From positions 1-64,000 of the forward strand of contig JALFVL010000037.1 in assembly GCA_022787165.1 (NCBI GenBank): DNA of 64,000 nucleotides, given 5' to 3'. The position numbers and the translations under genes were made by a program. Each line of letters begins with the position of its first letter. The first letter of the stretch is position 1. Positions 4,405-52,522 of this stretch are shown here, piece by piece. The DNA is from Clostridiales bacterium (GTDB lineage Bacteria > Bacillota > Clostridia > Christensenellales > Aristaeellaceae). A model generated the notes under the pieces. It was given only the letters and a program-made list of their open reading frames with translations, was not told the DNA's origin and ran no database searches.

Positions 4405-7400
4405 ATGAAAAAAGCCGTCCGCCGCGTGCTGGCCGCGATGCTTTGCGCCCTGCTGGCGCTTTGCGCGCTGCCCGTGTGCGCCCAGGAGGAGAGCGCCCTT
4501 TCCGTGCAGGTGGCGCTGACCCTGGGCGATGGCACGCAGGTGCTCATTCCCGCCCAGCCGGTGACGACCACGCTTGGCGACACCGTCTATTGGGTGGACG
4601 AGACCGTGCTGGAGCCTGAGATGGTGGAGGCGCTCGCCTCCGGACAGCTCGTCGTGACCGATGAGGAGGGCAGCGCCCGCCAGATCCCGCTGAATCCGGA
4701 TGCGGTCGCGCCCGACATGCTCTCGCAGCTGGGTGATCCCGAGGATCCATCCCTGGTGCTCGACGTGCTCTTCGGCGCGAGCATGCCTGTCCCGGCCTCG
4801 CCCGAGGAGGCGGACGCCGTGCTCTATCTGTACGGCTTTATGACGCCGGAACCGGAGGAGACGCCGATTCCTGAGACGCCGGTGCCTGAGACGCCTGTGC
4901 CTGAGACGCCGGTGCCTGAGACGCCGATCCCGGAGACGCCAGTGCCTGAGACGCCGGTGCCCGAGACGCCGGTGCCCGAGACACCGGTGCCTGAGACGCC
5001 GGTGCCTGAGACGCCAGTGCCTGAGACGCCAGTGCCTGAGACGCCGGTGCCTGAGACGCCGGTGCCTGAGACGCCGGTGCCTGAGACGCCTGTGCCCGAG
5101 ACACCGGTGCCTGAGACACCGGTGCCTGAGACGCCAGTGCCGGAGACGCCTGTCCCGGAGGTCGATGTGCCGCAGTACGCGGCGGCCATTGAGGACGGTG
5201 TCAGCCTGATCGATGTGACGACGGGGCAGACCCTGCTGCCGGTGGGCGCGGGCGAGCTGCTCTTCGTCTCGCAGTATGCCTGGGATACGACCGGCGAGCT
5301 GTGGTACAAGGTCGTCGATTACAGGACGATGACCGAGGGCTACGTCCGCGCCAGGCAGGTCGGCGCGGTCGACGAGGCGACGGCGGCTGAATGGATGGCG
5401 CGCATCGACGCGGAGATGAATCCGCCGGAGGAAACGCCCATCTCTGAGACGCCTGTCCCGGAGACGCCCGTGCCTGAAATGACGTCAGTGCCGGAGGAGA
5501 CGGCCGCGGCCGAGAAGACGCCTGCGCCGGAGACGCCTGTCCCCGAGACGCCTGTTCCCGAGACGCCTGTTCCGGAAACGCCCGTGCCCGGCCCGCAGTA
5601 CGCCGTGACGAACAACGACTCCGGCATCAGCATCCTGCGCGACGCGCCCGACGGCGCGAAGCTCGAGGAGCTTGCTAATGGCGTGCTTCTGGAGATCGGC
5701 GACGTCGCCGATGCCGAGGGCAAGTGGTATGCCGTGACGGTGGTGGCCACCGGCAGAACCGGCTACATGCGCAACTACCTGCTGGAGGCGAGGATTTCCG
5801 CCGAGGACGCGCAGAAGCTGATCGACGCGATGGGTGCGAGCGCGACGCCGACGCCGAGCCCCGTGCCCGAGGAGACGCCGGCGCCTGCGCCCGTGGAGAG
5901 TTTCCCGGAGTGGGCCATCACGCTTGAGCAGAGCAACAACACCGCCATCGTGCTGCGCGGCGAGCCGGCCGGCGAGCTGCCCACCAGCGGCGCGATTCCC
6001 ATGATCAACGAGCCGACGCCGCTGGAGCTGTCCGCTTCCGCGACGGACGCAAACGGCCAGCTCTGGTACCTGGCGACCGACCTTTGCACCGGCAACACGG
6101 GCTATCTGGAGGCCTTCAAGGTGCGCATCGTCTCCCGCGATGAGGCGATGGCCGCCGTGAAGACGCCGGAGCCGACGATCATTCCGCCCGCGCCGGAAGA
6201 GACGCCCGCGCCGACGGACACACCGGAGCCCACGCCCACCCCGACGCCGGAGCCGGAGGAGCCGCAGCCGCTGCTGGCGGGCGATGTCTATCACTACGGC
6301 TACAACACGGGCAAGCAGGTTGCCCTGCGCGAGAAGGCGGACGCCAACGGCAAGCTGATCACCCGTCTGACGGCGGGCACCGTGCTCTGGGTCATGCAGC
6401 GCACGGAGGGCGACACGGCGAACGCCTGGTGCTATGTGCGCACGGATGTTGGCGAGGGCTACATCAAGGCCGAGTTTGTGCAGCTGATGGGCGAAAACGA
6501 GGAGGCCGCCTACCGCGAGACCCTCGACGACCCGGAGGTCGCGCCCGTGCCGACGGCGACGCCGACGCCGACGCCGGAGCCGACGGACACGCCGACCCCG
6601 GAACCGACCGATACGCCGGAGCCCACCGACACGCCGGAGCCGACGGCGACCCCGGAGCCGACACAGACGCCGACGCCGGAGATAACCGCCATGCCGACGG
6701 CGACCCCCGCGCCGCAGAGCCTGGATACCTATGCGCGCGTGCTCGCGGACGGAACGCCGCTGCGCGGCAACCCGAGCAAGGACGCCTATCTGCAAACCAT
6801 CCTCAAGACTGAGGACGTCGTCTATGTCTTCCAGAGCCTGACCGCCGAGGATGGCATGACGTGGTACCTCGTCCAGTTCAGCGGCCAGTGGGGCTATGTC
6901 CGCGCCGACCTCGTGCGCCTGATGGGCGAGCAGGAGAAGGCGGACTACCTCGCCGCGCTCGAGGGGGCGCTGGCGACGCCGACGCCGATGCCGCAGGCGA
7001 CGCCGGAGCCTGTCGGCCCGAATTCCACGAGCGCCTATGCCAAGCTGATCAAGGATCAGGTCAACCTGCGCCGCACGCCGTCCGCCTCCGGCACCTCGCT
7101 GGGGCGCATCCCGGTGAACACGCTGCTGCTGGTCGTGAGCACCGAGTCCGACGGCACCTACACCTGGTATCAGGTCGACTACAACGGCCAGACCGGCTAT
7201 GTCCGCAGCGACATGGCGCAGATGCTGACCATCGCCGAGCTGCAGGCCTATCTCAATGAGCAGGCGAGCGCGACGCCCGTGCCGGGCGCTTCCGCCACGA
7301 CTGCCCCGAACAGCAGCAACAACGTCAGCCACGTCATCAACGGCACGCCGCTTCAGGATCTCATTCCCGTGGACGACAGCTGGACGAGCAACGTGATCTC

Positions 7401-15940: not shown

Positions 15941-17461
15941 ATGAAGCATATTGTCCTTTTTCTCCTTCTCGCGGCGCTGATGCTGCCCGCCTGCGCCGCC
16001 GCGCAGCGCATCGTCATGGATGGGGCGCATGTGTCCTTTGACTATCCGGACAGCTGGCTCGTCGTCTCGCCGCAGCTGGCGAAGGTCTATGCGCCGCTGC
16101 TGGAGGACGCAGGCATTGACGCGCAGGCGCTTGGCGAGGAGCTTGCGGACGCAAAGGTGCAAAGCCGCGCCTACAGCGCGGACTATGCCCAGTGCCTGAG
16201 CATCGTCGCTTTTAGCGACGACCTCTCCGAGGAGATCTACGACATCGAGCGCGTCACGGACAGCCAGCGCCGCACGATGAAGAGCCGGGCGGAGAGCGGC
16301 GCCCTCTTTGAGACGACCGGCCTGCGCGTGCAGGACACGGCCTGGCAGAAGGAGGGCGGCCTCTACTGGCTCTATATCCATTACACGAAGACGCGAGCGG
16401 ACGCGACCATCGGCCGCGGCGTCCGCTATGTCACCGTGCGCAACGGCATGTACATCGTGTTGGACTGGCAGAAGACGGACGGGCGCTTTACGAACAAGGA
16501 GCTGAGCGCCTTTCGCGCGCAGACGGCGAACCTGACCGTGACGGAGAGCATCCCCGAGCCGATGCGCACGGTCAGCCTGACGGCGCAGATTCCTACAGAG
16601 ACGAACACCGCCGAGATCATGATCAGCGGAAAGACAGAGGCCGGGGCGACGCTCCTGGCGCAGGCGCCGGACGCGAAGGGCGAGATGCAGACGCTCTCCG
16701 TCGGCGTGGCGGGCGCCAGCGGCAGCTTTGACTTGCTCGTGCAGCTGGAGGACGAGGGCAGCTATGACCTCACGCTGACGGCCAGCGTCGAGGGCAAGCT
16801 CGACGCGAGCGTCTCCGGCACCGTCGCCTACAGCGCCAAAACCCTGCCGGTCAGCCTCGTTGGCGCGCAGGAGGACGGCATGACCGTCGTCACCAGCGAC
16901 AGCGTCACGATTTCCGGGCAGACGCTCGCCGGCACGCAGATGCAGCTCGTCTCCCCGAAGGGGCTGACCAAGAAGAGCACGGGAAACGACGGCAGCTTCT
17001 CCTTTGAGCTGACGACAAAGGAGGCGGGCGAGTACGACTATACGCTCATCCTTTCAAAGAGCGGCTACGACCAGCGGCGCGTGCGCTTCACGCTCGTGCG
17101 CCAGATGACGGACTCGCAGGAGCACGAGGCTGTCAAGAAGAGCGCGGACGCGATCTCCTACAAGAATCTGCAAAAGAACCTCGAGGAAAACCTGGGCAAG
17201 ACGCTGGTGATCTACGGCCCCGTGACCGAGATCAGCGCGGCAGGCAGCAACGTCTACCTGCGCATGCAGTACAACAAGAAGAGCGACGGCACCTGGTATA
17301 ACCCTGTGGTCGTCGTCGCGGACGCGGACACGGGCATCAGGGAGGGCGACATGGCGACGCTCGCCGTGACCGTCGCGGGCGTCTTTGAGGAGCAGGACGA
17401 GCAGGGCAACCCCGTGATGATCCCGCATCTTGAGCTGCTGTTTGTGGACAAGGTGGAATAA
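15941..17461 (+). CDS. Secreted protein with Ig-like repeats, function unknown
   Basis: 506 residues; GAAGGAG lies 9 bases before the ATG. The first 20 residues are a signal peptide; LMLPAC could be a poor lipobox (Pro at -2) or the end is a normal AAA-Q cleavage site. Residues about 28-200 form an alpha/beta region of PsbP-like or bacterial stress-protein character (VSFDYPDSWLVVSPQ). Two beta-sandwich modules follow (about 215-300 and 305-385), each with a GSF-x-L...GxYDxTL core as in carboxypeptidase-regulatory or Ig-like domains. The last 110 residues look like an OB-type beta domain (GKTLVIYGPVTEI). No enzyme motif is visible. It is likely a surface or lipoprotein component; the gene is the last of the capA operon. 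Confidence 0.65.
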   Translation: MKHIVLFLLLAALMLPACAAAQRIVMDGAHVSFDYPDSWLVVSPQLAKVYAPLLEDAGIDAQALGEELADAKVQSRAYSADYAQCLSIVAFSDDLSEEIYDIERVTDSQRRTMKSRAESGALFETTGLRVQDTAWQKEGGLYWLYIHYTKTRADATIGRGVRYVTVRNGMYIVLDWQKTDGRFTNKELSAFRAQTANLTVTESIPEPMRTVSLTAQIPTETNTAEIMISGKTEAGATLLAQAPDAKGEMQTLSVGVAGASGSFDLLVQLEDEGSYDLTLTASVEGKLDASVSGTVAYSAKTLPVSLVGAQEDGMTVVTSDSVTISGQTLAGTQMQLVSPKGLTKKSTGNDGSFSFELTTKEAGEYDYTLILSKSGYDQRRVRFTLVRQMTDSQEHEAVKKSADAISYKNLQKNLEENLGKTLVIYGPVTEISAAGSNVYLRMQYNKKSDGTWYNPVVVVADADTGIREGDMATLAVTVAGVFEEQDEQGNPVMIPHLELLFVDKVE

Positions 17462-17521
17462 AACCGTCGATCCTCCGGCCATGAGCCCGGGGCCGCTGCC
17501 TTGCAACAGGATTTCGACAAC

Positions 17522-17549
17522 AAAAAAGCCTTCCCCGCAGGGGGAAGGC
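17522..17549 (-). terminator. Terminator of the FprA gene
   Basis: Read on the minus strand, GCCTTCCCC pairs with GGGGAAGGC (17541-17549/17528-17536, four-base loop) and is followed by TTTTTTG (17521-17527). It is a textbook intrinsic terminator 13 bases after the minus-strand stop, and it also separates the converging Ig-like gene. Confidence 0.9.
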
Positions 17550-19141: not shown

Positions 19142-19192
19142 AACAAAGCGGCCCTGCTGCGCTCTTTGAAAGCGCGGCAGGGCCGCTTTGTT
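19142..19192. terminator. Bidirectional terminator between rubredoxin and the CotH gene
   Basis: A 22-bp stem (19142-19163 with 19171-19192, one G-T pair, loop ctttgaa) has AACAAAG at the left foot and CTTTGTTT at the right, so a T-rich tail appears on both strands. It lies 13 bases after the rubredoxin stop. Confidence 0.9.
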
Positions 19193-19273
19193 TCTGCGCC
19201 GCTTCGGACCCGGCCGCAGAGCAACGGGATGGACGGCATTTCGTCGGAGATGCCGCCAGCAGCATGCCGGTTT
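19193..19273 (-). repeat. Hairpin-headed intergenic element, inverted copy
   Basis: Read on the minus strand: AACCGGCA-tgc-TGCTGG head hairpin (head starts at 19270), then CTCCGACGA starting at 19249, 21 nt after the head start, as in the copies at 28742 and 50882. It lies between the CotH stop and the shared terminator, so it would be in the 3' untranslated region of the CotH transcript. Confidence 0.6.
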
Positions 19274-28729: not shown

Positions 28730-28741
28730 GAAACCCCTCCC

Positions 28742-28931
28742 AAACCGGCATGATGCCGGTTGCATTTCCGACGAAGTGACATAAGTCCAGTTGCTTTGTG
28801 CCCGAGACCGGAGCTTTGCAGAAGGACTTACAGAGTAAACCGGCATGACGCCGGTGGCATTTCCGACGAAGTGACATAAGTCCAGTTGCTTTGTGCCCGA
28901 GACCGGAGCTTTGCAAAAGGACTTACAGAGT
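28742..28931 (+). repeat. Tandem pair of 95-bp hairpin-headed elements before pta
   Basis: Two copies, 28742-28836 and 28837-28931, differ at only about three or four positions. Each has CCGGCA-tga/tgac-TGCCGG-type head hairpin (28745-28759; 28840-28854), TTCCGACGA (28766-28774; 28861-28869) and GAGACCGGAGCTTTG (28804-28818; 28899-28913). Inside each copy AAGTCC can pair with GGACTT some 45 nt later, giving a long lower stem. The pair lies between divergent tmcAL and pta, upstream of the pta promoter. Confidence 0.85.
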
Positions 28932-28968
28932 AAAGAACGACGTTTATCGATAAAATTCCCATGCCGCC

Positions 28969-29069: not shown

Positions 29070-30068
29070 ATGTCTGTCATCGACAAAATCAGGGCAAAAG
29101 CGGCTGCGGACGTCAAGCACGTTGTGCTGGCGGAGGGCAGCGAACCGCGCACCGTGCAGGCGGCGGAGAAGATCGTGAAGCTGGGCCTGGCCAAGATCAC
29201 GCTCGTGGGCGCGAAGGCCGAGATCGAGGCCAAGGCGGCCGAGCTGGGCGTTGACCTGACCGGCGTGAGCATCGCCGATCCCGCGACGAGCGACAAGACC
29301 GCGGCGTATGCCGAGCAGCTCTTCCACATCCGCGAGAAGAAGGGCATGACCCTGGAGAAGGCGACCGAGCTCTGCCTCAAGAACACGCTGTTCTACGGCA
29401 CGATGATGCTCAAGATGGGCGACGCGGACGCGATGGTCGCGGGCGCGATCAACACCACCGGCGACGTGCTGCGCCCGGCGCTGCAGATCATCAAGGGCGC
29501 GCCCGGCATCAAGACGGTTTCCTCCTGCTTCCTGATGGAGGTGCAGGACAAGAAGTACGGCGACGACGGCGTGCTCGTCTTCGGCGACTGCGCGGTCAAC
29601 ATCGATCCGACCAGCGAGCAGCTCGCGGATATCGCCATCGCCTCCGCGCAGACCGGCAAGGCCCTGCTGGGCATGGAGCCGCGCGTCGCGATGCTCTCCT
29701 TCTCCACCAAGGGCAGCGCCAAGCATGACCTCGTGGACAAGGTTTCCGCCGCCGTGAAGCTCGTGCATGAGCAGGCGCCGGAGCTCAACGTCGACGGCGA
29801 GATGCAGGCCGACGCCGCGCTGGTTTCCTCCGTCGGCGAGCTCAAGTGCCCGGGCAGCCCGGTCGCCGGCAAGGCGAACGTGCTCGTCTTCCCGGATCTG
29901 CAGGCCGGCAACATCGGCTACAAGCTCGTGCAGCGCCTGGGCGGCGCGAAGGCCGTGGGCCCGGTCATTCAGGGTCTGGCCAAGCCGGTCAACGACCTCT
30001 CCCGCGGCTGCTCGGTCGAGGACATCGTCGATGTCGTCGCCATCGCGGCGGTCAAGGCGCAGGCGTAA
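29070..30068 (+). CDS. pta: Phosphate acetyltransferase
   Basis: 332 residues, the short Pta form typical of Firmicutes, without the long N-terminal extension of enterobacteria. It converts acetyl-CoA plus phosphate to acetyl phosphate and CoA in the cytoplasm. Family landmarks: [31 protein letters not shown] near the start, [39 protein letters not shown] in the middle, and [60 protein letters not shown] at the end. CAAGGAGG lies 8 bases before the ATG. It is followed at 33 bp by ackA, forming the usual acetate-producing, ATP-yielding operon. Confidence 0.98.
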
Positions 30069-48657: not shown

Positions 48658-49860
48658 ATGGCGAAGAAGACGGTTGAAGACATCAAAGTGACCGGCAAAA
48701 AGGTGCTCGTCCGCTGCGATTTCAACGTGCCGATGAAGGACGGCAAGATCACCAACGACAAGCGCATTGTCGCGGCGCTGCCGACCATCAAGAAGCTCAT
48801 CGCGGATGGCGGCAAGGTCATCCTGTGCAGCCACCTGGGCAAGCCGAAGAATGGCCCGGAGGCCAAGTTCTCCCTCGCGCCGGTCGCCGCGCGCCTGAGC
48901 GAGTATCTGGGCAAGACCGTCGTGTTCGCGGATGACGACACCGTCGTCGGCGAGAATGCGAAGGCCGCTGTCGCCGCGATGAAGGACGGCGACGTCGTGC
49001 TGCTGCAGAACACCCGCTTCCGCAAGGAAGAGACCAAGAACATCGAGGAATTCTCCAAGGAGCTCGCTTCCCTGGCGGACTGCTATGTCGACGACGCGTT
49101 CGGCTCCTGCCATCGCGCGCACTGCTCCACCGAGGGCGTCACGAAGTTCCTCTCTCCCTGCGTGGCCGGCTATCTGATCGGCAAGGAGCTCGACATCATG
49201 GGCAAGGCGCTGGAGAACGCCGACCGTCCGTTCGTCGCCGTGCTGGGCGGCGCGAAGGTTGCGGACAAGCTCAGCGTCATCGAGAATCTGCTGGAGAAGG
49301 TCGACACCCTGATCATCGGCGGCGGCATGGCCTTCACCTTCCTCAAGGCGCAGGGCTACGGCGTGGGCAACTCCCTGCTCGACGAGACGAAGATCGACTA
49401 CTGCAAGGACATGCTCGCCAAGGCCGAGGCCAAGGGCGTCAAGATCCTGCTGCCGGTCGACACCGTCTGCGTGAAGGCGTTCCCGAACCCGATCGACGCC
49501 GAGGTCGAGACCCTGGTCGTCGACGCCGACAAGATTCCGGACGGCATGGAGGGCTGCGACATCGGCCCGAAGACCGCTGCGCTCTACGCTGAGGCGGTCA
49601 AGACCGCGAAGACCGTCATCTGGAATGGCCCGATGGGCGTGTTCGAGAACCCGACCCTCGCCGCCGGCACCCTGGCCGTGGCGAAGGCGATGGCCGAGAG
49701 CGAGGCTGTCACCATCATCGGCGGCGGCGACTCCGCGGCGGCGGTCGAGCAGATGGGCCTTGGCGACAAGATGACCCACATCTCCACCGGCGGCGGCGCG
49801 TCCCTTGAGTATCTCGAGGGCAAGGTGCTGCCGGGCGTCGCGTGCCTGGACGAGAAATAA
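48658..49860 (+). CDS. pgk: Phosphoglycerate kinase
   Basis: 400 residues from ATG 48658 (GGAGGAG site). Glycolytic ATP-forming step: 1,3-bisphosphoglycerate plus ADP to 3-phosphoglycerate plus ATP. Landmarks: [79 protein letters not shown], the hinge and nucleotide part [33 protein letters not shown] and the C-terminal [13 protein letters not shown]...[15 protein letters not shown]. Typical length. Followed by the repeat block and tpiA; transcribed from the promoter at 48482. Confidence 0.98.
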
Positions 49861-50056
49861 CCGGCTGGCGCCGGGGCACTTCCGACGAGACTGTGAAGGA
49901 TAACAGTCCCGGCTGCACGAGGCCGGTGCTCTGTGAGCTTTCCTGATCATCGGCTGGCGCCGGGGCACTTCCGACGAGACTGTGAAGGATAACAGTCCCG
50001 GCTGCACGAGGTCGGTGCTCTGTGAGCTTTCCTGATCACAGGCTGCGCCGGAGGCA
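49861..50056 (+). repeat. Tandem pair (plus fragment) of hairpin-headed elements between pgk and tpiA
   Basis: Two nearly identical units with an 89-bp period (about 49861-49949 and 49950-50038), then a fragment resembling the head only (50039-50056). Each has CCGGC-tggc-GCCGG (49861-49874 in copy 1), TTCCGACGA (49880-49888) and GAGGCCGGTGCTCTG (49919-49933; the second copy has one substitution). The spacing of these blocks equals that of the pair at 28742 within one or two bases, although intervening sequence differs. They start directly at the pgk stop codon. Confidence 0.88.
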
Positions 50057-50077
50057 CACAATTTCATGCAACTCAAA

Positions 50078-50110
50078 AGCCCCGGACGGCCTTGGGGCCG
50101 CTCCGGGGCT
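50078..50110 (+). terminator. Hairpin upstream of tpiA, attenuator or stabiliser
   Basis: AGCCCCGGA (50078-50086) pairs with TCCGGGGCT (50102-50110), with inner GGCC/GGCC. No T-run follows (CATGAT), so full termination is unlikely. It lies 8 bases before the tpiA ribosome site region. Confidence 0.55.
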
Positions 50111-50131
50111 CATGATATGGAGGAAAACACC

Positions 50132-50881
50132 ATGCGTACACCGATCATTGCCGGCAACTGGAAGATGAACAAGACCCCCAGCGAGGCGAAGGCGCTCGTC
50201 TCCGCGCTCGTGCCGCTCGTCGCCGACGCGAAGTGCGACGTCGTCGTCTGCACGCCGGCCGTCGATTTCGCCGCGGTCAGCGAGGTGATCAAGGGCACGA
50301 ACATCAAGCTCGGCGCGGAGAACATGCATTGGAAGGAATCCGGCGCGTTCACCGGTGAGCTGAGCGCCGCGATGCTGAAGGAGAGCGGCGTCGAGTACGT
50401 CATCCTCGGCCACAGCGAGCGCCGGCAGTACTTCGGCGAGACCGACGCGACCGTCAACCTGCGCACGCTGGCGGCTGTCAAGGCCGGCCTCACCCCGATC
50501 ATCTGCGTGGGCGAGAAGAAGGAGGAGCGCGAGGCGGGCTACACCAACGCGCTGGTCACCTATCAGACCCTGATCGCGCTCAGCGGCCTGACCGCCGAGC
50601 AGGTCGCGAAGGTCGTCATCGCCTATGAGCCGGTTTGGGCCATCGGCACGGGCCTCACCGCGACCGACGAGCAGGCCAACGAGACCATCGGCGTCATCCG
50701 CGAGGCCGTCCGCTCCGTCTACGGCGACGCGGCCGACGAGGTGCGCATCCAGTATGGCGGCTCGATGAACCCGAAGAACTGCAAGGGCCTGATGGCGCAG
50801 CCCGAGATCGACGGCGGCCTCATCGGCGGCGCGTCCCTCAAGGCGGAGGACTTCTCCAAGGTCGTGCATTTCGACGCGTAA
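50132..50881 (+). CDS. tpiA: Triosephosphate isomerase
   Basis: 249 residues from ATG 50132 (GGAGG upstream); longer in-frame starts run through the hairpin and are not used. Interconverts dihydroxyacetone phosphate and glyceraldehyde 3-phosphate. Motifs: TPIIAGNWKMNK with the substrate-binding Asn and Lys, YVILGHSERRQYFGE with the catalytic His, VVIAYEPVWAIGTGLTATDEQAN with the catalytic Glu and the mobile loop, and IQYGGSMNPKNCKGLMAQPEIDGGLIGGASL at the phosphate site. Standard length. Confidence 0.98.
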   Translation: MRTPIIAGNWKMNKTPSEAKALVSALVPLVADAKCDVVVCTPAVDFAAVSEVIKGTNIKLGAENMHWKESGAFTGELSAAMLKESGVEYVILGHSERRQYFGETDATVNLRTLAAVKAGLTPIICVGEKKEEREAGYTNALVTYQTLIALSGLTAEQVAKVVIAYEPVWAIGTGLTATDEQANETIGVIREAVRSVYGDAADEVRIQYGGSMNPKNCKGLMAQPEIDGGLIGGASLKAEDFSKVVHFDA

Positions 50882-50985
50882 CCGGCAGGGTGCCGGAGGC
50901 GATTCCGGCGACATCGTGAATTTGATCCGGGCGGGCCGCGCAAGGGCTGCGACAGCGCAGCCGGCATGCGTCCGGGAGCTTGAGA
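50882..50985 (+). repeat. Hairpin-headed element between tpiA and gpmI, single copy
   Basis: CCGGCA-ggg-TGCCGG head (50882-50896) and TTCCGGCGA at 50903, 21 nt after the head start, as in the 28742 copies. The distal box is not conserved; instead GGGCTGCGACAGCGCAGCC gives another hairpin (about 50944-50962). It occupies the whole gap between the two genes. Confidence 0.6.
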
Positions 50986-50995
50986 AGGAGCAATT

Positions 50996-52522
50996 ATGAC
51001 CAAGAAACCTGTTCTTCTGTGTATCATGGACGGCTTCGGCTGGGTGCCGGAGACGACCTATGGCAACGCGATTTCCGCCGCGAAGAAGCCGAACCTCGAC
51101 AAGCTCTTTGCCGAGTGCCCCTATACCACCATCGACGCCTCCGGCATGGCCGTTGGCCTGCCCGACGGCCAGATGGGCAACAGCGAGGTCGGCCACACCA
51201 ACATCGGCGCGGGCCGCATCGTCTATCAGCAGCTGACGCTGATCACCAAGTCCATCCTCGACGGCACGATGAAGGAAAACGACGTGCTCGTGCGCAACAT
51301 GAAGAAGGCCATCGACGGCGGCAAGGCCATCCACTTCATGGGTCTGCAGGGCACCGGCGGCGTCCACAGCCACATCGACCACCTCTTCGGCCTGCTCGAC
51401 CTGGCCAAGCATCTGGGCGCAAAGGATGTCTACATCCACGCGATCATGGACGGCCGCGACACCGACCCGCACGACGGCAAGGGCTTCCTTGAACGCGTGC
51501 AGGCCAAGCTCGACGAGCTGGGCATCGGCAAGATCGCGACCGTCACCGGCCGCTACTACGCGATGGACCGCGACTCCAACTGGGACCGCATCGAGAAGGC
51601 CTACGCGGCGTTTGTCTACGGCGAGGGCGAGCATGCTGAGAACGGCCTCGCGGCGATTGAGAAGAGCTACGCCGACGGCGTCACGGACGAGTTTGTCGTG
51701 CCGTGCGTCACCTGCGAGGGCGGCCGCGTCAGCGAGGGCGACACCGTCATCTTCCTCAACTTCCGCCCGGACCGCGCGCGCCAGATCACGCGCACCTTCG
51801 TCGACGACAATTTCAAGGGCTTTGAGCGCCGCTATGGCCGTTTCCCGGTGCAGTACGTCTGCATGGCGGAATACGACGCGACGATGCCCAACGTTGAGGT
51901 TGCCTATCCGCCGGTCGAGCTGACGAACGTGCTGGGCGAGTACCTCGCCAAGAACGGCAAGACGCAGCTGCGCATCGCGGAGACCGAGAAATACGCGCAC
52001 GTCACGTTCTTCTTCAACGGCGGCGTCGAGGCCCCCTACGAGGGCGAGGACCGCAAGGTCATTCCGTCCCCGAAGGTCGCGACCTACGACCTCAAGCCGG
52101 AGATGAGCGCCTACGAGGTCGCGGACGAGTGCGCGGCGCGCATCCGCAGCGGCAAGTATGACGTCGTCATCCTGAACTTCGCCAACTGCGACATGGTCGG
52201 CCACACCGGCGTGTTCGACGCGGCGGTCAAGGCGGTCGAGGCCGTCGACGCCTGCGTGGGCAAGGTCTGGGAGGCCGTGAGCGAGATGGGCGGCTGCATG
52301 TTCCTGACTGCCGACCACGGCAACGCGGACAAGATGAAGAACGAGGATGGCTCCCCGTTCACCGCGCACACGACCAACCCCGTGCCCTTCCTCGCGGCGG
52401 GCGTGGGCGACGTGAAGCTGCGCAAGGGCGGCTGCCTGGCGGACATCGCGCCGACCATGCTGCCCTACATCGGACTGCCCGTGCCGAAGGAAATGACGGG
52501 CAAGAGCATCATCGAGGGATAA
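50996..52522 (+). CDS. gpmI: 2,3-bisphosphoglycerate-independent phosphoglycerate mutase
   Basis: 508 residues, usual length; AAGGAG lies 6 bases before the ATG. Converts 3-phosphoglycerate to 2-phosphoglycerate with two Mn2+ ions and a phosphoserine intermediate. Visible: Asp12 in LLCIMDGFGW, catalytic Ser63 in QMGNSEVGHTNIGAGR, HSHIDHLFGLL, HAIMDGRDTDPHDG, NFRPDRARQITR, and the second metal cluster NCDMVGHTGVFDAAVKAVE...TADHGNADKM. Last gene of the glycolytic operon; eno and gapA are not in this window. A strong terminator follows. Confidence 0.98.
   Translation: MTKKPVLLCIMDGFGWVPETTYGNAISAAKKPNLDKLFAECPYTTIDASGMAVGLPDGQMGNSEVGHTNIGAGRIVYQQLTLITKSILDGTMKENDVLVRNMKKAIDGGKAIHFMGLQGTGGVHSHIDHLFGLLDLAKHLGAKDVYIHAIMDGRDTDPHDGKGFLERVQAKLDELGIGKIATVTGRYYAMDRDSNWDRIEKAYAAFVYGEGEHAENGLAAIEKSYADGVTDEFVVPCVTCEGGRVSEGDTVIFLNFRPDRARQITRTFVDDNFKGFERRYGRFPVQYVCMAEYDATMPNVEVAYPPVELTNVLGEYLAKNGKTQLRIAETEKYAHVTFFFNGGVEAPYEGEDRKVIPSPKVATYDLKPEMSAYEVADECAARIRSGKYDVVILNFANCDMVGHTGVFDAAVKAVEAVDACVGKVWEAVSEMGGCMFLTADHGNADKMKNEDGSPFTAHTTNPVPFLAAGVGDVKLRKGGCLADIAPTMLPYIGLPVPKEMTGKSIIEG

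Follow-up and report, generated by a model that had tools for sequence, protein, structure and literature searches.

The repeated units between pgk, tpiA and gpmI in this DNA are, to judge by their weak scores with a model built from 132 copies, very diverged members of a family of intergenic repeats, and comparison of sites and genomes makes it quite likely that the family consists of non-autonomous mobile DNA repeats of about 95 bp. As far as its matches show, the family is genome-wide, dispersed and confined to one group of bacteria, and the units between pgk, tpiA and gpmI are probably old members that have since decayed. Coordinates of the features in the window, by which we mean the whole 64,000-nt stretch that was analysed (contig JALFVL010000037.1, positions 1 to 64,000), are collected in Table 1.

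Table 1. Units, fragments and remnants of the repeat family in the window.
Feature	Position	Strand	Evidence
Probable head-less remnant directly after the stop TAA at 17459-17461	17462..17522	+	E 0.0038, model positions 44-86
Unit at the stop codon of the minus-strand gene ending at 19272	19182..19273	-	E 7e-10 (12-copy model)
Canonical 95-bp unit (ACCGGC...CAGAGTAA), upstream of the gene called at 29070	28744..28838	+	E 1.3e-28 (12-copy model)
Second canonical unit, in tandem	28839..28933	+	97% identical to the first; E 3.3e-27 (12-copy model)
Unit 1, diverged, pgk-tpiA gap	49860..49948	+	Sequence read; E 0.0035 (132-copy model, window; match starts at 49858)
Unit 2, tandem copy of unit 1	49949..50037	+	Sequence read
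Head-like fragment after unit 2	50038..50062	+	Sequence read
Diverged left half-unit, at the tpiA stop TAA (50879-50881)	50881..50925	+	E 0.00033 (132-copy model)

A sequence-only reading of this interval had described two 89-bp units and a fragment in tandem after pgk and a further diverged unit in the tpiA-gpmI gap; all of these were found as described on reading the sequence. Its 3' box, 38-39 nt beyond the first, also lies where it was placed, and the first box does begin 19-21 nt after the start of the head, except that in the second pgk unit it reads GAGGTCGG. Unit 1 overlaps the pgk stop codon (TAA, 49858-49860) by one base, its first. Units 1 and 2 are 97% identical to each other; unit 2 on its own gave an E of only 9.2 with the 132-copy model, and for the fragment the family model reported no match. 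The match at 50881 extends over the first ~45 nt only, and no recognisable family sequence was found in the remainder of the tpiA-gpmI gap, to 50995. Since the single-sequence fold predictions for the units at pgk and tpiA differ from the fold of the family, no structural conclusion is drawn from those units. Elsewhere in the window, the plus-strand pair has a 95-bp period and scored E values of 1.8e-26 (at 28742) and 3.1e-22 (at 28838) with the 132-copy model, the minus-strand unit, whose box is CTCCGACGA, scored 8.4e-15 with the same model (match at 19184), and the head-less remnant resembles the right-hand stem part of the model.

The pgk-tpiA gap could be read in 22 relatives, and in 20 of these no unit was recognised, a result that tells against the role within the operon that the sequence-only reading had proposed. 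Diverged units follow pgk directly in two relatives, G007 and G010; in G017 and G003 the gap opens with what, by eye, may be unit remnants. By this comparison, the insertion at pgk could predate the species.

The intervals around tpiA also hold features of other kinds. Upstream of tpiA, at 50079-50109 of the window, there is a nearly perfect, GC-rich hairpin (GCCCCGGACGGCC...GGCCGCTCCGGGGC), and a similar hairpin, its sequence changed, was seen by eye in all 23 of the 23 printed pgk-tpiA gaps; a search for mismatch-free stems gave a best stem of at least 10 pairs in 11 of the 23, that of G009 being another hairpin. Unlike the repeat, the hairpin before tpiA is thus conserved, and it may act as an intra-operon attenuator or a processing stem. 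Another repeat-like sequence (AGGGGCGGGGCTCTGC...CCGCCC), found in the tpiA-gpmI gaps of G007, G009, G020, G003 and G017, is perhaps a second intergenic repeat family of the genus.

The pattern of head, gap and TTCCGACGA matched 13 times in the 2.49-Mb genome and not once when reversed; the short box alone was not significant (17 matches at one mismatch vs 16.1 expected). A covariance model built from 12 copies found at least 116 matches at E<=1 in the window's genome, antisense echoes of palindromes included, and the 76 curated copies comprise 75 of these 116 matches plus the unit at 49947, matches antisense to a stronger copy and weak matches that were not fetched having been left out. All copy numbers are lower bounds, with 150 candidates scored in the window's genome and 69 or 34 per genome otherwise. 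The sequence-only reading had proposed a search of relatives with such a model; run with stricter filters, the 12-copy model matched 17 of 60 genomes, that is, the window's own, 15 of 28 others of the same genus, 1 of 7 from other genera of the family and 0 of 24 from other families. The second model, of 132 copies, found the repeat in 8 of 120 genomes of the family, in 3 of 50 genera. That all copies lie in central-carbon transcripts, as had been supposed, is true of the copies in the window only, the family being genome-wide. A search of phages and plasmids with window positions 28735-28935 gave no match, a second pattern searched in IMG/VR found no contig, and among the 118 stretches listed by a loose-pattern scan two had the 3' box, neither of them family-like by eye. 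One 8.6-kb IMG/VR contig (L340) has a unit directly after a TAA, around position 4585.

The family consensus reads AAACCGGCATGATGCCGG TTGCATCACCGACGAAGTGATG TAAGTCC CGTTGCTTTGCGGCCGAGGCCGGAGCTTTGCAGAA GGACTTA CAGAGTA(A). Units of ~95 bp carry the head hairpin (CCGGC) at the left end, and the right part forms a longer outer stem in which TGTAAGTCC is paired with GGACTTACA (in subfamily variants AAATCC with GGATTT, AAAGTCCC with GGGACTTT, and others) and an inner stem of six pairs, GCTTTG with CGAAGC or CGGAGC, before the unit closes with TAA or CAA. Twelve copies aligned in their own orientation had a mean column identity of 85% over ~95 bp. The consensus ends ACCGGCATGATG and CTTACAGAGTAA are, by eye, not complementary, and there are no terminal inverted repeats. 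A coding repeat, to which a frame beginning MMPVASPTK... tempts the reader, was rejected because there is no coding signal: the ATG frame is interrupted by a stop in 67 of the 120 copies carrying the start, and variability is hardly higher at third codon positions (0.90 bits) than at the other two (0.75 and 0.72).

Folding was assessed on an alignment of 132 of the 137 sequences collected, from which RNAalifold retained only the head; the consensus and inspection by eye suggested the other two stems, whose pairs were then counted. Covariation over 26 tested pairs was 0.151 vs 0.124 for column shuffles, none of 500 being as high, and reached at most 0.096 when the pairing was slid; these pairs include a small second hairpin, only 60% paired, that is not relied on. 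When the trees were built from the remaining columns only, compensatory changes numbered 4 in the head, 6 in the outer and 4 in the inner stem, vs 0.8, 1.4 and 0.7 in re-paired controls, which were as high in 2, 2 and 8 of 300 cases, respectively. Single-sided changes were far commoner (49, 187 and 116 in the same three stems), as expected for decaying copies. Compensatory change in the three stems is modest and above controls, and the fold is conserved. The sequence-only reading had taken the units for a folded RNA under selection and not an insertion; the compensatory changes bear out one family with a conserved fold, and the contrast of a selected RNA with an insertion is not supported, given the dispersal of the copies and the turnover of their sites.

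The compensatory changes are also what would be seen if the family were a structured RNA acting in cis on the stability, processing or regulation of its mRNA, spread by duplication and kept for its effect on the neighbouring gene, an explanation that we consider unlikely. The inner stem, where G-U (200) exceeds A-C (32) as expected if the plus strand folds, agrees with such an RNA, and the outer stem, where A-C (89) exceeds G-U (46), does not. The fold may instead be kept for mobility, and covariation therefore cannot choose between a regulator and a mobile repeat.

Copies at random places, including inside genes, had been named as something that would speak against a selected RNA; as it turned out, 74 of the 76 curated copies overlap no gene predicted by a simple codon-based caller in their own genome. 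Among 122 non-tandem sites (64 in the window's genome and 58 in relatives), 31 begin exactly at the in-frame stop of the upstream gene (27 TAA, 4 TGA), where the frame had to be open, coding-like and at least 45 codons long. Stops at offsets -2 to 0 number these 31, and the 58 preceding positions together hold 13, scattered (binomial ~1e-30). Comparison shows that insertions favour the 3' side of A-rich triplets, above all TAA and TGA stops, and the right flank of the copies is A-rich, declining with distance. The many copies just after stop codons would also suit a cis-acting RNA, as would the excess of sense over antisense copies between co-directional genes (30 vs 13, p 0.014; 23 vs 11, p 0.058, with tandem arrays counted once); the 13 antisense copies between co-directional genes would not. 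The diverged units of G007 and G010 at the pgk stop, a site that may be old and kept, count against a mobile repeat.

Insertion near transcription starts was considered too: 7 TATAAT-like boxes fall 11-20 nt upstream of copies, compared with 5 in the reverse-strand control, which is no clear enrichment. Four loci of G000 lie no more than ~20 nt downstream of such a box, C1:71475-71570 (L157), C4:5252-5442 (L228), C7:24204 (L152) and C10:12944 (L229), and in one of them the unit lies, by eye, between the promoter and a T-box-like leader. On contig C41 of the same genome (L347, 690-4184), two similar ORFs of 544 aa stand in tandem on the minus strand, an apparent gene duplication, with a decayed repeat, represented by its right end only, between them.

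Tandem arrays contain two or three units with a period of 89-97 bp, each unit using the closing triplet of the preceding one in common. Neighbours within arrays are 79-98% identical vs 75% for random pairs, a range that points to mixed origins: some arrays look like local duplication, and those at C14:77310 and C21:83519, in which the tandem neighbours belong to different subfamilies and are 79-85% identical, suggest successive insertions, each at the end of a unit already there.

Signs of turnover come from sites that are filled in one genome and empty in another. At six loci a unit is present in G027 or G011 and the site is empty in the other, and at some of them in further relatives too, as in the pair ...GTTACGCAGTAA[ACCGG...CAGAGTAA]ATAGCATGG (filled) vs ...GTTACGCAGTAAGCCAAGCAG (empty). 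In the window's genome, four occupied loci have alignable relatives without the unit: 6, 4 and 7 relatives at the first three (two of the seven with an unrelated longer gap) and 1 of 3 at the fourth, where the other two failed to align on the left. The tpiA-gpmI gap is itself such a site, with a canonical unit directly after the stop in G027 (TAA[ACCGGC...CAGAGTAA]gaaggag) vs gaps of 13 nt in G011, G014 and G028 (TAAgaaggag in the last). Sites are thus not conserved between species where tested, which weighs against a cis-acting RNA, and a regulator built for the glycolytic operon is rejected on account of the genome-wide copies together with the turnover of the tested sites. The operon role suggested earlier likewise fits poorly with a dispersed family whose sites are occupied or empty depending on the species and whose tandem neighbours can be of differing subfamilies, and the small mobile repeat that the sequence-only reading had named as its alternative explains the dispersal, the empty sites and the mixed-subfamily tandems better.

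The junctions also bear on how units insert. The tpiA-gpmI pair suggested a strict 3-bp duplication of a TAA target, which was rejected since the first triplet bases differ at 52 of 91 sites. Left and right triplets agree at 33 of the 91 non-tandem sites vs 24.1 in shuffled data (41 of 5000 shuffles as high), and among nearly identical young copies of G000 they differ in 4 of 7. Going by these differences, a good share of the copies, at the least, carry the closing triplet as part of the element, and some insertions may involve a target duplication or a common A or AA.

A narrower form of the mobile-repeat explanation is that the family derives from an IS200/IS605-type element, or is a REP, and relies for its movement on a Y1 transposase that acts on hairpins in single strands, which we regard as conceivable though doubtful. 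IS200/IS605 derivatives are recognised by subterminal hairpins, a target kept at the left end, no target duplication, and ends identical to those of a transposase-carrying element; the repeats resemble them in their subterminal hairpins and in the target retained at the left end. The missing terminal inverted repeats and strict target duplication, the hairpins near the ends, insertion 3' of a short target and the head-to-tail arrays would all suit this origin, which the triplet agreement slightly above chance makes less probable by weakening the case against duplication. Against it, Y1 transposase (PF01797) occurred in 7 of the 16 genomes that have copies and in 9 of the 13 that have none, giving no positive association over the 29 genomes, it was not found in the drafts of G000, G026, G011 and G027, several copy-rich genomes being among those without it, and no GTAG or CGTC tag stands beside the palindrome. 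RNA-mediated dispersal through a reverse transcriptase is very improbable: the plus-strand fold of the inner stem and the declining A-richness of the right flank are in keeping with it, but RVT_1 showed no association with the repeats (4 of 16 genomes with copies, 5 of 13 without) and was not found in G000, G026, G018 or G027, and most of the aligned copies are full length, in a search that favoured such matches. Of the matches from a scan for right ends in three genomes, six of G000 without a model hit were read, and none of the six was a larger element; one proved to be a decayed copy. As the genomes are drafts, a gene for the mobiliser could be missed. It seems rather unlikely that the mobiliser lies outside the Y1 and RVT families and actively selects stop codons as targets, stops being then more than sites where insertion is tolerated, possibly through coupling to the termination of transcription or translation and a folded transcript or exposed strand.

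If the family is a non-autonomous mobile repeat, as we prefer, an enzyme encoded elsewhere would recognise the hairpins, probably on a single strand, and attach the element's left end 3' of the target, with the element supplying its own right closing triplet. Comparison shows head-to-tail arrays that build on the triplet closing a previous unit, and landing just after a stop codon would spare the gene, so that copies would accumulate inside operons. After insertion they would decay, any effect on the mRNA being incidental. The family is of interest as a compact repeat with copies so alike that they are probably recent; its preference for inserting after stop codons and onto itself can be read from filled vs empty sites. 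It also gives reason for caution: where intergenic folds covary in such genomes, mobility and not regulation may be the cause.

No Rfam match reached the gathering score in the window, in 49700-51100 or at four loci, which is a further point against a cis-acting RNA. The head sequences were not found in the literature searched, which yielded analogues at most; such strings are seldom printed in text, so that this is weak evidence of novelty. MITEs are recognised by terminal inverted repeats and target-site duplication, and the former are missing here. RU-1 is the repeat also called ERIC. RU-1, RU-2 and RU-3 of Enterobacteria are small mobile intergenic repeats, 103-168 bp long, that are described as MITE-like (PMC2759123); on that description, our family differs from them in having no terminal inverted repeats. 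More distant are the REPs of the GTAG and CGTC families, described as palindromic, intergenic and present in many copies, those of the CGTC family also being without a known transposase (PMC3733652). REPs are given there as 20-40 bp long with a terminal tetranucleotide tag (PMC3733652), whereas the unit described here has 95 bp, two hairpins and, by eye, no tag beside the palindrome; nor was a Y1 transposase (RAYT) found in the draft genomes G000 or G026. The word Firmicutes is absent from the main text of that REP paper (PMC3733652).

The closest kinds are the bcr and MIRU repeats. Repeats bcr1-bcr18 of the Bacillus cereus group are described as group-restricted, some MITE-like, some with conserved secondary structure, and often in UTRs (PMC3446304); our family resembles them, compared by description, as a group-restricted intergenic repeat with conserved structure, and differs in its host group and in having no terminal inverted repeat. 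MIRUs are reported as intergenic repeats of 40-100 bp, apparently mobile, often tandem, and placed at gene boundaries where the neighbouring gene is spared (PMC12548453, PMC2734929). Again by description, our family shares the intergenic position, the frequent tandems and, in a wide sense, insertion at a codon of the gene boundary (here the 31 of 122 sites at stops). According to one account (PMC12548453), MIRUs target start codons and contain an ORF that is coupled to the gene after it, unlike our family, whose left end lies at the previous gene's stop codon and which shows neither a coding signal nor such an ORF. By these comparisons, the family is probably a small mobile intergenic repeat of the MIRU/bcr1 kind.
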